A stretch of 64,000 bases of DNA from a candidate division WOR-3 bacterium (GTDB lineage: Bacteria; Hydrothermota; Hydrothermia; UBA1063), in NCBI GenBank assembly GCA_039803545.1, contig JBDRYS010000001.1, forward strand, positions 962,688 to 1,026,687, written 5' to 3'. The notes under the pieces are model-generated. The model saw only the letters and a list, made by a program, of their open reading frames with translations, searched no databases and was not told the origin of the DNA. The translations under genes were made by a program, and so were the position numbers. This document shows, piece by piece, positions 1 to 5,653 of the stretch (positions are counted from its first letter, which is position 1; the number at the start of each line of letters is the position of its first letter).

Positions 1-24
1 GGCGGAGAGGGTCTCGAACCCCCT

Positions 25-44
25 AATCCCCCGGATGGGGGATT
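25..44. repeat. palindrome, array copy A
   Basis: AATCCCCC and GGGGGATT form an 8-bp inverted repeat around GGAT. It stands where the 3' side of the tRNA-Asn anticodon stem and variable loop would be in the tRNA-like copy. The same palindrome occurs at 468-487. Confidence 0.75.
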
Positions 45-126
45 AACAGCCAGGTACTCTATCTTTAAGTATCTCTTTATGCAACCCCCAAATAAAAAAC
101 ACTCCCCGGGAGGGTCTCGAACCCCC

Positions 127-145
127 AATCCGCCTTAGGCGGATT
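127..145. repeat. palindrome, array copy B
   Basis: AATCCGCCTTAGGCGGATT is a 9-bp inverted repeat around one base. It replaces the eight tRNA bases at 572-579 of the intact tRNA-Asn. The flanks match the intact tRNA exactly (102-128 against 545-571; 144-161 against 580-597). It overlaps the stop codon of the GIY-YIG gene. Confidence 0.8.
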
Positions 146-413
146 AACAGCCAGGTGCTCTATCCTTAAGTATCTCTTTATGCAACCACTCTCTCCCCTT
201 CCCGCTCTTAAGTTGCTTCTCTCTCCTAACAGCCATAGCTCTGGTTTCATAGACTTCATAATAAGCAAGTTTCCATGGACCTGGGTTCCTTTTGGTATAA
301 AGAGTTAAATTACAATCTGGATTATTATGCTGCTTAAGCCGTTTTTGAAGGTCAGAGGTCTGACCAATGTATATTTTGCCCTTAGGATTTACAAGTACAT
401 AAACGTAAAACAT
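144..413 (-). CDS. small GIY-YIG nuclease inside the tRNA-Asn repeat array
   Basis: This 89-residue protein is a stand-alone GIY-YIG domain of the UvrC/YhbQ type. The first motif is YVYVL at residues 3-7 and the second is YIG at 15-17, followed by LQKRL..H (22-29) with the conserved arginine, and RREKQLKS near residue 62 that should carry the metal-binding glutamate. Family members cut DNA, and some are homing endonucleases. The last codons (R-A-P-G-C-stop) are read from sequence identical to the D-stem/anticodon region of tRNA-Asn, and the TAA stop covers the bases after the anticodon. Two gene-less copies of its 3' end lie on either side. There is no Shine-Dalgarno sequence; the start follows a T-rich leader shared with the deleted copies. 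Being a mobile-element nuclease is inference; a host repair role is the alternative. Confidence 0.8.
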   Translation of the reverse strand: MFYVYVLVNPKGKIYIGQTSDLQKRLKQHNNPDCNLTLYTKRNPGPWKLAYYEVYETRAMAVRREKQLKSGKGREWLHKEILKDRAPGC

Positions 414-435
414 TCCCCCAAAATAAAAACACTTC

Positions 436-448
436 CCGCCTCAGGCGG
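436..448. repeat. palindrome at the head of the GIY-YIG unit
   Basis: CCGCCTCAGGCGG, a 6-bp inverted repeat around one base, sits between the tRNA T-arm fragment (449-467) and the leader of the GIY-YIG gene. The first bases of the window (1-5) are the matching half of another copy. Confidence 0.7.
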
Positions 449-467
449 AGAGGGTCTCGAACCCCCT

Positions 468-487
468 AATCCCCCGGATGGGGGATT
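468..487. repeat. palindrome, array copy C
   Basis: Same inverted repeat as at 25-44 (AATCCCCC, GGAT, GGGGGATT), again replacing the anticodon-stem 3' side of a tRNA-Asn-like fragment. It is part of the 128-bp direct repeat. Confidence 0.75.
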
Positions 488-544
488 AACAGCCAGGTAC
501 TCTATCTTTAAGTATCTCTTTATGCAACCCCCAAATAAAAAACA

Positions 545-617
545 CTCCCCGGGAGGGTCTCGAACCCCCAACCCCCTGGTTAACAGCCAGGTGCTCTGCC
601 TGTTGAGCTACCGGGGA
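545..617 (-). tRNA. tRNA-Asn (anticodon GTT)
   Basis: The minus strand folds into a standard 73-base tRNA: acceptor TCCCCGG/CCGGGGA, D stem GCTC/GAGC, anticodon stem CCTGG/CCAGG with loop CTGTTAA (anticodon GTT), T arm with TTCGAGA, and discriminator G. No CCA is encoded. It follows recA by about 47 bases on the same strand and may be in the same transcript. Partial copies of it make up the array downstream. Confidence 0.95.
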
Positions 618-664
618 GTGTTATAGCTTAATTATATTTCACCACTTTTGCACAGTCAAGAAAA

Positions 665-1675
665 CTATGCAAGTCCAAGAGCCTTCTTAAGTTCCATTTC
701 TAACTCTTTCTTCACCTGGGGATTCTCCTTTAGGAAGAGCCTTGCTTTCTCTCTGCCTTGACCGAGTTGATAGTCCTTGAAACTGAACCAGGTTCCACTC
801 CTCTTAATTATGCCATGCTCAAGGCCCCAATCAATAAGTTCACCTTCGTAGGAAATTCCCTCTCCATAAATGATGTCAAATTCGGCACTCTTGTAAGGCG
901 GTGAAAGTTTGTTCTTTACAATACGCACCTTAACCCTGTTTCCTATGATGTCTTCACCCTGTTTAATAGAGGCAATCTTTCTAATCTCAACCCTCATTGA
1001 AGCATGGAATTTAAGGGCAAGTCCGCCGGGGGTTGTCTCCGGATTTCCAAAACCAAATCCCGTCTGAATTTGCTGTCTTATCTGGTTTATAAAGATGGCA
1101 CAGGTCTTCGATTTATTCAAAACTCCGACGAGTTTTCTCATTGCCTTTGACATCAATCGTGCCTGCAGGCCAACCTGGGCATCACCCATTTCCCCTTCGA
1201 TCTCGGCTCTTGGAACGAGGGCTGCAACGGAATCAATAACCACAAGGTCAATGGCGTTGCTTCTCACTAACATCTCAACGATTTCAAGGGCTTGCTCCCC
1301 CGTATCTGGCTGCGAAAGTATGAGGTCATCCACATTGACACCAAGGGCCTTTGCATAAGTGGGATCCAGGGCGTGCTCCGCATCTATAAAAGCCGCCTTA
1401 CCACCAAGTTTGTGGGTCTCGGCAATGGCATGAAGTGCCAATGTGGTTTTACCAGATGCTTCAGGTCCAAAGATTTCAATAATTCTTCCCCTTGGATAAC
1501 CTCCAACCCCCGTAATAATATCAAGGCCAAAAGAACCCGTTGGAATAACTTCCACCTTAATTTGAGTGGCTTCGCCCAGTTTCATTATGGAACCCGGGCC
1601 GTATTGTTTTTCTATCTGCTTTAGAGTTGCATCAAGTATTCGCTCTTTTTCCAGATCCTTGTCTTCTCCTGCCAT
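665..1675 (-). CDS. recA: recombinase RecA
   Basis: RecA is the DNA-dependent ATPase that forms filaments on single-stranded DNA, drives homologous strand exchange and triggers SOS-type self-cleavage. The 336-residue product shows Walker [10 protein letters not shown] near residue 70, the Walker B aspartate in [11 protein letters not shown], and the C-terminal lysine-rich tail. The ATG at 1675 is preferred over an upstream GTG because AGAGGTGAG lies just before it. The L2 loop region (about residues 200-217) reads [17 protein letters not shown]; the usual IRxKIGVMFGNPETT is two residues shorter, so this RecA carries a small L2 insertion. It lies 13 bases downstream of dcd, in the nrdJ-dcd-recA operon. 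I saw no LexA box. Confidence 0.97.
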
Positions 1676-2251: not shown

Positions 2252-5200
2252 CTATTCACACTTTGAATAACCACAATCAATGCAAAGATAGCAACCTTCC
2301 TGGTAAATTAACCTTCCACCACATTCAGGGCAGATGTCATACTGTTTTTCCGCTTCTTCTGACTTCTTTGCCTTCTTATGGAGATCTATAATGGGCTTTA
2401 GTGTAGGACTTGCAGGCAGAAGCTCTAACTGAACACCTCTTTCTAAGTACTTTTCTATTGCCTTGGCTATCGCATCGGGCACGGAATAAACTACCTCACC
2501 ATTTTCCTGCCTTACAGGTGTAGAACTCTTGATACCCTTCAATTGTTTTACCACTTCACTTACCGGCACCCCGGAACGCAGAGCAAGGGAGATGAGCCTC
2601 CCAATGGCCTCGGTAAAGGCCATCGTTTGAGAGCCAGACTTTCCAAGGTATATGAAGACCTCAAAGATACCGTACTCATCTTCATTGATGGTAATGTAGC
2701 AATTTCCGAGATCTGTTACCATCTTAATGGTTCTGCCCTTGGTGACCTCTGGCCTTGGCCTCGGGGTTGTGAAAGGAGGCCTTTTCGTCTCTGCGGTTTC
2801 CTTAGCCACCTTGATCACCTGTTCTTCCCTTGAGCCATCCCGGTAAACCGTTAGGCCTTTAAGCCCCATGTAGTATGCTTCTCTATAAACCTTTGCAACA
2901 TCCTCAACAGTGGCACTATTAGGCATATTGATCGTTTTGGAAACCGCGTTATCCACATACTTCTGGAAGGCAGCCTGAATCCTCAAGTGTTGCATCGGTT
3001 CAATATCAAAGGTGGTATCAAAGACTTTCCTTATGGATTCTGGAATGCCTTTAAAATCTTTTATGCTTCTCGCGCCCGCAACTTCCTCCATTAACTCTCG
3101 GGAGTAAAAGCCAAGGGCTCTTGCCGCCCTTTCAAAATGGCTATTTATGTATAGCAGATTTTCACCACCAAGGACAGTCTTGGTATAGGCCAAGGAGAAA
3201 AGGGGTTCTATACCCGATGAAGTATCGGCAATCATGGAGATGGAACCTGTTGGAGCTATGGTCGTCAGCGTTGCGTTGCGCATCGGGTGCTTGTAAATAC
3301 TTTTATCGATATTCGGGAAAGATCCTTTGTATTCAGCAAGTTCCATTGATTTCTTTACCGCCTCTTCCTGTATAAACTTCATAACCTCTTCCGCAACCTT
3401 TACAGCATCCTGAGAGGAATAGGGGATTCCAAGTTGCAATAGCATATCCGCAAAGCCCATAACTCCAAGTCCAACTTTCCTGTTGGCCAAGGTCATATTC
3501 TTTATTTCTTCGAAGGGGAAATAGTTCACATCGATAACATTGTCCAGGAAATGAACGCTAAGATGCACAATCTCTCTCAATTTTTCCCAGTCAATCTTCT
3601 TTAAGGCTTCCTCAGCGGTGCTAACTTTACCCTCTTCATAGGCTGGTTTACCTTTTACAAATTTCGAAAGATTAATGGAGCCCAAATTGCAGGATTCGTA
3701 AGGCAGGAGTGGTTGTTCCCCACAGTTGTGGATATAGAGGCCATTCCCGTCGAAAGCGTTTATTCCAGGTACTTGAACATCATAAACTTCTTCGAATCCG
3801 TCTTCCTCAACCCTTTCCACCGTTGCCAAGAAGGACTCTTCTTTTGGCCCCCTCTTATAGGAAGAAAGTGCAGAATTCAACTTCCGCATCCTTTCATTGT
3901 CGCCGAAGCCGATTCTTTCCGCAAATACAATAATGTTATCACCGCTTATAACCAGCTCATATTGAGGTTCTAATTTGTAAGATGATTCAATGTTCTTGAC
4001 ACCTTCTAACTTTTCAAGCCTTGCATCCTCTCCCTTATAGTAAATCCTGCTTACGATCCCAAGCCTAAGAAGCATCCTTTGAACGGTCTTTAGAAGCTCG
4101 AAATCGCTATGGGAGAGTTTTATACTCACACCCTTTGACAGATTTCCACAAATATTGCCATTGGTATCAAATAGGCCTCGCAGGAAACCCTTATACCCTT
4201 CCGACGAAGCCCTTTCAATGGTAGACAATACAATCTCCTTTTCAGTTTCTATTCTAAATTTCCTCGAAAATTCCCTTAAAGTTTCAAAATTCAATCTATG
4301 ACCATTCCCACTTTTAACCTGTAACACACCTCTCGATTCTGAACAATGAGACATAGCCATTGCATAGGAGAGAACCTTCGTCAAAGCCTCGCCTTCTTCC
4401 AGTGCTTCCCTCTTCCCCTCCAAAGTTGATAGGACTGACGCCTCCTCCTCAATCTCAACACCTCCCATAAGGAGTCCCAAAAGATAGCCTTCCGATTTTG
4501 TGAGTTCACCGGGCCAGCTGCCTAAGGCACGATGGTTGTGAAGTACCACTTTATCTCCGGGCTTTAAATCTTGTGCCGAAACCCATTCATAGTTTTTCCG
4601 ATCCTTTCCTTTATTTGTAAGTTTCAAAACCTTATGATCGGGTGTTAATCTTAAGCTGTAACCCTCCTTAGTTTGTAATTTCAGAATGGGTTTAATTCCT
4701 GTGCTGAAAAATCCCTTACTTGTGGTCTCGTATAATGTTCCGTTTACGACCACGACAAAGGGCCTACCAAGCAAATCTTTGACCTGATAAGGGCCATCTG
4801 CAGTCATAACCCAGGTATCTCGTGTAACGCAGGGATTAGTGGATTCTATTTCTCCGGCACCGGGAACCGGGTGTTTCTTGTTAATAGTATCGATAAAGAT
4901 AACCCCCGGTTCGCCGTTCTTCCATGCGTAATAGACCATTTTGTCAAAAACTTCCTTTGCACTCAACTTACCCGTTACCTGCCCATTTCTCGGGTTTACA
5001 AGCTCATACTCTTCGCCCTTTTCCAAAGCCTCCATAAACCTATCAGTGACTGCTACCGAGATATTGAAATTGGCCAATTCTCCTTCCTTGGCTTTACACT
5101 CAATAAACTCAAGGATATCAGGGTGATCAACCCTCAAAATCCCCATATTGGCACCACGGCGCCTTCCACCCTGCTTTACCGCCTCCGTCGCCTCGTTGAA

Positions 5201-5653
5201 AACCCTCATAAAGGACACAGGTCCGCTGGCAACACCGCCGGTACTTCTTACAATATCATTTCTCGGCCTTAATCTTGAGAAAGAGAAGCCCGTTCCTCCG
5301 CCCGTTTTGTGAATGATGGCAGTTTTTTTAATTGCTTCGAAAATCTCCTCCATGGAATCACCAACGGGGAGCACGAAACAGGCGCTTAACTGACCAAGGG
5401 GGGTACCTGCATTCATTAAAGTGGGGGAATTGGGTAAAAAATAAAGCTGAGTCATTATTTCATAGAACTTTTCCTCTAATTCTTCGGCGGTAAAGGGGCT
5501 CTTAGGGTAGTTCCTCTCCGCTTCACTTATTGCCTTAGCAACCCTTCGAAACATCCCCTCCGGAGTTTCAATAACCTCTCCATTCTCATTCTTTAAAAGA
5601 TAACGCTTCTCCAGCACCTTCAGTGCATTTTCACTTAAAAATAAATCGCCCAT
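2252..5653 (-). CDS. nrdJ: adenosylcobalamin-dependent ribonucleotide reductase with intein
   Basis: This class II enzyme reduces ribonucleotides to deoxyribonucleotides using coenzyme B12 and needs no oxygen. The 1133-residue precursor contains a 369-residue intein (residues 275-643), leaving a mature enzyme of about 764 residues. Extein landmarks are [11 protein letters not shown] (first redox cysteine, near 92), [23 protein letters not shown] (active-site N-C-E cluster, split by the intein), PTGSIS, a TSCPD-type domain near residues 990-1060, and a C-terminal CxxC..CxxC zinc-ribbon-like tail that supplies the shuttling cysteines. It starts 12 bases after the lipoprotein gene and precedes dcd. 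There is no sign of a separate NrdR or of a class I/III enzyme in the window. Confidence 0.95.
3725..4831 (-). other. intein in nrdJ with decayed LAGLIDADG endonuclease
   Basis: The intein begins with Cys275 (CVTRDTWV) and ends ...GLYIHN (residue 643), followed by Cys644 as the +1 residue. Splicing elements look complete: Cys1, TPDH in block B (337-340), the penultimate His, the terminal Asn and Cys+1. The insertion sits in the active-site motif NPCGEQ. Two LAGLIDADG-like helices are visible: LLGLLMGGV (391-399) has lost both acidic positions, while LRGLFDTNG (491-499) keeps its aspartate. Splicing is therefore expected, but homing cleavage is probably lost. That last point is inference. Confidence 0.92.

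Follow-up and report, generated by a model that had tools for sequence, protein, structure and literature searches.

Why should the gene for a small GIY-YIG nuclease lie among broken copies of the tRNA gene that it adjoins, and what part do the palindromes inside those copies play? The window, which is the whole stretch of 64,000 nucleotides that was analysed, corresponds to C1:962688-1026687 of the 1.67 Mb WOR-3 genome G000, and the array that raises this question lies at its very start, with all of its features on the minus strand. Following that strand, an intact host tRNA-Asn (GTT) gene heads the array (544-618; ARAGORN, Rfam RF00005 64.7 bits) and is followed by a short unit, a complete unit and a second short unit (97-1).

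The complete unit starts with a leader, TTTATTTTGGGGGAATG, which ends in the ATG of the ORF (411-427). The nuclease ORF of 89 amino acids (144-413) is followed by the 5' part of tRNA-Asn up to the anticodon loop, GCACCTGGCTGTTAA (144-158), a palindrome, AATCCGCCTAAGGCGGATT, that replaces the 3' anticodon stem (127-145), and the T-arm with the 3' strand of the acceptor (98-126). As the ORF ends at 144 and the tRNA 5' part occupies 158-144, the nuclease gene and the tRNA remnant overlap, with the stop codon located within the tRNA copy. In the first short unit, the leader is joined to the last bases of a deleted ORF (501-543; junction 539-516, repeat D1), and next come the 5' part of tRNA-Asn as far as the anticodon loop (GTACCTGGCTGTTAA; 486-500), the palindrome TAATCCCCCATCCGGGGGATTA, which here replaces both the 3' anticodon stem and the variable loop (467-488), the T-arm, GGGGGTTCGAGACCCTC (450-466), and an extra palindrome, CCGCCTGAGGCGG, inserted in the 3' strand of the acceptor (436-448). 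The second short unit has the leader joined to the ORF tail (58-97; junction 96-73), the tRNA-Asn 5' part (43-57), the palindrome TAATCCCCCATCCGGGGGATTA (24-45), and the T-arm with the start of the acceptor (1-23). In both short units the leader (ending in TTTGGGGG) runs straight into the last coding bases of the ORF, TTGCATAAAGAG, which are also found at the end of the full ORF, and the rest of the ORF is missing. The direct repeats at 1-131 and 444-574 share 99% identity, which is not due to chance.

Every unit therefore ends in a tRNA-Asn copy that retains the T-arm as well as the 5' portion as far as the anticodon loop, and the palindromes take the place of tRNA positions 39-47 or 39-49, the 3' anticodon stem. 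The first-pass annotation of this DNA had described an intact tRNA-Asn with tRNA-Asn-derived segments and one complete GIY-YIG gene (the tRNA at 544-618 and the ORF at 413-144 were both found by tools), two copies retaining only the leader and the ORF end, and a 3' anticodon stem exchanged for a palindrome, and all of this was recovered. The tandem array that it reported is real but larger than noted, since it extends past the window edge through a run of 99 N and into further units (C1 about 962150-962590). In total, one intact tRNA-Asn and seven remnants were found, the outermost being the most decayed. The run of N (C1 about 962589-962687; L005 5590-5688) stops exactly at base 1 of the window, inside the array, and its flanks imply that it probably hides another complete GIY-YIG unit; the copy number here is therefore uncertain. 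The palindromes had also been taken for hairpin-forming ends of an element, a description that did not find support; they are located within the duplicated tRNA, and their positions recur within an isotype.

The unit thus consists of a GIY-YIG nuclease gene and a duplicate of the resident tRNA gene, of which one short and defined part has been exchanged for a palindrome. It is about 300-440 bp long, with the GIY-YIG ORF as its sole gene, and one tRNA copy is altered by the palindrome while the intact copy still adjoins. A tRNA-integrating genomic island was rejected because the unit has no integrase gene. The ORF lies in no intron or intein, and a group I or group II intron was rejected, as no intron RNA family in Rfam matched window positions 1-1000 and the tRNA beside the ORF is intact. 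Elsewhere in the window, a ribonucleotide reductase ORF of 1133 amino acids (2252-5653, minus strand) seemingly carries an in-frame intein-like insert, judging the translation by eye.

The protein itself is a minimal GIY-YIG domain (PF01541, E=2.8e-16), in which Y5, Y15, G17, R25, H29 and E65 are invariant in 31 relatives. Its structure was predicted with a mean pLDDT of 86, and the nearest solved structures are the UPF0213 proteins BH0048 (1zg2) and EF2693 (1ywl), then Slx1, a structure-specific nuclease (E=2e-8, 3e-7 and 0.0016, respectively), with which the predicted fold agrees. Classical GIY-YIG homing enzymes carry an added DNA-binding domain, whereas the window nuclease has no separate domain of this kind. 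The homing-type nuclease proposed at first therefore holds at the level of the superfamily, but for a minimal Slx1/UPF0213-like domain the word homing is an analogy. Although UPF0213 and Slx1 resemble the window nuclease in sequence and predicted fold, no role in a mobile element has been described for them in the literature examined, and the tRNA-linked subclass differs from both in a distinct C-terminal motif (REK..KS..GR..L). Ortholog pairs gave dN/dS values of 0.04-0.19 (0.04 for the window ORF against its G004 ortholog), or upper bounds up to 0.11 where dS was saturated. Such low values indicate purifying selection, and therefore that the nuclease proteins are maintained.

The same build occurs once more in G000, at a tRNA-Asp gene. 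The locus, at C4:45.4-45.9 kb, is the one further small GIY-YIG locus of the genome and has one complete and one truncated copy, in the order intact tRNA-Asp, ORF (starting 13 bases on), a tRNA-Asp copy lacking its 5' end, and the truncated second ORF. The anticodon arm of this tRNA-Asp copy is TCCCCCGTCACGGGGGA. Palindromes of the array class are few elsewhere in the genome and nearly confined to tRNA arrays, and the idea that they are general repeats of this genome was rejected. Two further matches were stems of 23S rRNA, and others lie at C1:212252, C1:444827 and C4:488.

When the two sites were compared in close relatives, filled, empty and scarred states were found. The tRNA-Asp site is filled in G002, where the palindrome is as in the window genome but with the central base inverted; in G001 the ORF lies at a contig end, and in seven genomes the site is empty (G004, G005, G006, G007, G009, G010 and G012). 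At the tRNA-Asn site, one complete unit is present in G004, which belongs to the same family as the window genome, while G001 and G002 keep a solo, decayed tRNA copy without the ORF, and G005 and G007 are empty. The arrangement is therefore not fixed, and the suggestion that a tRNA gene serves as the target is supported.

To determine how widespread the unit is, 170 small GIY-YIG loci were collected, 93 of them in a survey of the phylum and the other 77 by scanning GTDB genomes for Asn-type proteins. Of these, 89 had a same-strand tRNA no more than 260 bases from the ORF; for control positions over 900 bases distant, the figure was 3.8%. At 57 of the 89 tRNA-adjacent loci, there was a second tRNA copy that was broken and contained foreign sequence (0/89 with shuffled flanks), and in 47 of the 57 the foreign stretch contained a palindrome with arms of at least 6 bases (3.0% in shuffles). 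The isotypes seen include Asn, Asp, Lys, Arg, Pro, Thr, His, Ser, Ile and Val, and the hosts include WOR-3/Hydrothermota, Patescibacteria, Omnitrophota, Elusimicrobia, Bacteroidota, Deltaproteobacteria, Zixibacteria and Verrucomicrobia. Recurrence of a like architecture at so many isotypes and in so many phyla bears out the earlier suggestion of an autonomous nuclease unit with deletion derivatives. The unit was also present in a named isolate, Luteirhabdus pelagi (L155), and on Mb-scale contigs (L344 and L345). Phage or plasmid cargo was rejected: the plasmid search gave no match and the phage search one weak match. Among viral contigs, the scan yielded a single close relative, which lies at a contig end and likewise has a tRNA-Asn copy with a palindrome.

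As a held-out set, 300 Flavobacteriaceae genomes were searched with an Arg-type profile, and 67 of them carried the nuclease, showing a patchy distribution. Among the held-out loci (L321-L347), 26 of 27 were at a tRNA (Arg, Met or Ala), against the 3.8% background, with the tRNA mostly starting at -22 to +6 relative to the ORF end. Offsets of -9 and -22 recur, placing the stop codon within the tRNA sequence. In several of the genomes, two or three ORFs with equal or near-equal scores follow one another every 300-370 bases, forming tandem arrays like that of the window.

About half of the 170 loci had no detected tRNA nearby. As far as they could be assigned, these were mostly other GIY-YIG subclasses, decayed copies and contig edges. 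In L036 (tmRNA 1819-2172), L046 (1095-1420) and L074 (1814-2163), the gene immediately downstream of the tmRNA belongs to another small GIY-YIG subclass; it is flanked by short direct repeats or by pieces of the tmRNA 3' end, and is possibly the same kind of element on tmRNA. A further subclass, ending in ..NPxWxDLY.., was seen in L075, L087, L101, L104, L106 and L112 among dispersed GTCATTGCGAG..GCAATCTC palindromic repeats. Repeats of the GTCATTGCGAG type were found at 7 of 15 loci of this subclass, against 3 of 139 of the tRNA-linked or other class, which suggests a wider association of GIY-YIG nucleases with palindromic repeats.

Target specificity was assessed from the nuclease phylogeny. 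In a tree of 79 tRNA-linked nucleases, which is based on about 84 columns and has few strong supports, 31 isotype changes were counted compared with 59.1 when isotypes were shuffled (0/200 as low), and Asp, Lys, Arg, Asn and Thr were strongly clustered. The Lys rows with a named host were all Patescibacteria, and so the host could confound these rows; the phylum set was therefore tested again by itself, with each combination of host family and isotype represented by a single row. Here, 8 isotype changes were needed (the minimum being 6) against 15.8 (0/1000), while host family was not clustered (9 changes against 8.1). On these trees, the nuclease phylogeny follows the tRNA isotype and not the host.

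The position of the swap also recurs within isotypes. In Lys it is mostly from 22-23 to 30-33, in Asp the anticodon arm, and in Asn mostly 38-49 or 24-35; in WOR-3, the anticodon arm is exchanged in Thr and the T-arm in His, and in Pro the D-, anticodon or T-arm. One palindrome class, P1 (CCTGCCTGCCGGCAGGCAGG), lies in the D-stem region in tRNAs for Arg, Thr and His and goes mainly with one nuclease clade (4 changes against 9.3, 0/1000); this test covers P1 only, the P2 class being defined too broadly, and one of its 10 P1 rows (L081) was labelled through a neighbouring repeat. P1 is also dispersed, with 14-87 copies each, in seven genomes (G045, G070, G090, G062, G074, G078 and G054), while 139 of 150 relatives lack it. 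As each of the seven also has Y1 transposases, the dispersal cannot be credited to the nuclease.

Taken together, these comparisons of sequence make it probable that the unit is a miniature, nuclease-driven mobile element that targets tRNA genes, probably selfish and with a homing-like logic, in which the palindrome-bearing tRNA copy is an integral part. We infer its movement from the presence and absence of the unit and from the phylogeny. The nuclease would cut a tRNA gene that lacks the element and belongs to the nuclease's own isotype class, close to the stretch where the palindrome later stands. Repair of this break from an element-bearing copy, with the two tRNA halves as homology arms, would install the nuclease gene and the palindrome-bearing copy, leaving one intact tRNA so that the host would live. 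Recombination between the repeated tRNA pieces could then be the cause of the tandem arrays that are observed, and deletion of the ORF and further decay could lead to short derivatives and finally to a solo palindromic tRNA scar; these products were all found, and the order is the one we propose.

The palindrome would be a working part of this element, most likely a form of the nuclease-recognised site that can no longer make a tRNA. It recurs across phyla and is linked to a nuclease clade, which argues for its recognition by the enzyme, and its position within the tRNA copy suggests a mark for the target stretch. It is also the least understood part of the element. The main difficulty for homing is that the intact tRNA stays beside the nuclease gene and the presumed target is uninterrupted, whereas in classical homing the target site is interrupted by the element. 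Either cutting depends on a context that is missing from the carrier, or the palindromic form and not the intact gene is what the enzyme acts on, as in the hairpin exchange considered below.

Several known systems share some of this logic. REP/RAYT pairs also join a small enzyme to a palindrome. RAYTs are Y1 (HuH) transposases, however, and a RAYT-driven REP was rejected, as no Y1 (PF01797) transposase is present in G000, G001, G002 or G004, where the palindromes are also not dispersed. SegB of T-even phages is a free-standing GIY-YIG homing endonuclease whose gene lies beside tRNA genes; it is reported to act on tRNA-containing sequences and to drive tandem amplification of the tRNA-nuclease segment through recombination at short shared sequences, with no isotype preference shown (PMC13096335). 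The adjoining tRNA genes and the tandem amplification are alike, but SegB is phage-borne and no palindrome-bearing broken tRNA copy has been described for it, whereas the unit studied here is chromosomal, tracks the isotype and has such a copy. In fungal mitochondria, the mORFs of Allomyces atp6 and of Glomus atp6, atp9, cox2 and nad3 are endonuclease ORFs inserted with a duplicate of part of the gene, so that one functional gene copy is kept and a displaced partial copy remains (PMC3630166). This resembles the two-sided tRNA copies at 57 of our 89 loci, although mORFs lie in mitochondrial protein genes and not in tRNA genes, are usually LAGLIDADG, and have a partial copy without a palindrome.

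In rRNA genes of CPR bacteria, GIY-YIG ORFs occur in insertions of no intron class, often at the top or base of a stem-loop; the authors place these outside spread by homing and mention neither tRNA nor palindromes (PMC11270868). They are like the window element in having GIY-YIG ORFs, outside any intron, in structured RNA genes and may possibly be the same element family on another target. None of these systems has been described with a palindrome-substituted tRNA copy or with isotype-tracking clades. The element was described nowhere in the literature searched (open-licence papers, with subscription papers and preprints outside the scope), in agreement with the first impression that its build was new.

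Another explanation, which we consider unlikely, is that a structure-specific, Slx1-like nuclease acts on hairpins or cruciforms, with the palindrome as both its cognate hairpin and the part that moves, put into tRNA genes in place of an arm or part of one, with the gene travelling along, as a GIY-YIG counterpart of REP/RAYT. tRNA genes are strings of hairpins, and the nearest folds are UPF0213 and Slx1. Clean swaps of a whole arm for a hairpin are seen in Asp, Ile, Val, Thr, Pro and His cases; in Lys, some Asn cases and the window, however, the replaced stretch spans two half-stems and not a whole arm. The palindrome class tracks the nuclease clade across Arg, Thr and His, and the palindromes of G000 and G002 are identical save for the inverted central base, as would suit a moving hairpin. 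The association of the ..NPxWxDLY.. subclass with dispersed palindromic repeats and the dispersal of P1 in genomes with P1-type nucleases also point this way, but the Y1 transposases of the latter genomes may account for that dispersal, and the palindromes of the window genome are nearly confined to its tRNA arrays. A broader version, somewhat less doubtful but still tentative, would be a new class of element in which a stand-alone GIY-YIG nuclease recognises its own palindrome and exchanges it, hairpin for hairpin, into tRNA (perhaps also tmRNA and rRNA) genes, carrying its gene along and leaving one tRNA intact, with clades specialised by isotype and palindrome class across phyla.

Explanations without a mobile element fare worse. 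Unequal exchange can yield tandem repeats at tRNA genes and the GIY-YIG family includes repair enzymes, so a resident repair gene could by chance have come to lie beside a tRNA, whose repeats then drove tandem duplication and decay with no mobility. This is very improbable, as nuclease and tRNA are found together at many isotypes and across many phyla, showing the same ORF/tRNA overlap and a palindrome in the copy, sister genomes have empty sites, and the nuclease clades track the isotype and not the host. We give just as little weight to a domesticated function, where the host would keep the unit and the nuclease and arrays would tune tRNA dosage or counter tRNA-cutting toxins or phage defences, as SegB amplification does in phages. 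Purifying selection, tandem arrays and the SegB precedent would fit such a function, but the distribution is patchy, units decay to scars, and the duplicated tRNA copies cannot raise the functional tRNA dosage because they are broken by the palindrome. The 99-N run within the array at the window edge could point to an assembly artefact, which can practically be dismissed, as the unit recurs in independent genomes, including that of L. pelagi and the Mb-scale contigs.

The palindrome-bearing copies can be mistaken for real tRNAs: ARAGORN called them as such in L221 (245-329) and L034 (1418-1494 and 1733-1810), reporting a tRNA-Asn copy as tRNA-Cys and D-arm-swapped copies as tRNA-Pro, which is a source of false tRNA annotation. 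In practice, the unit accounts for such spurious extra tRNA calls (tRNA-Pro and tRNA-Cys) and for protein predictions with tRNA-encoded tails.

If the reading as a tRNA-targeting mobile element is true, it would be among the smallest autonomous mobile elements known, living at essential RNA genes of many uncultured bacteria and of cultured Flavobacteriaceae, and many small proteins that are annotated merely as GIY-YIG nucleases would be genes of this element. It would also join free-standing homing nucleases, palindromic repeats and broken tRNA copies, which are usually studied apart. The isotype switches, arrays and scars could then serve as natural experiments on what allows a parasite to live on an essential gene.
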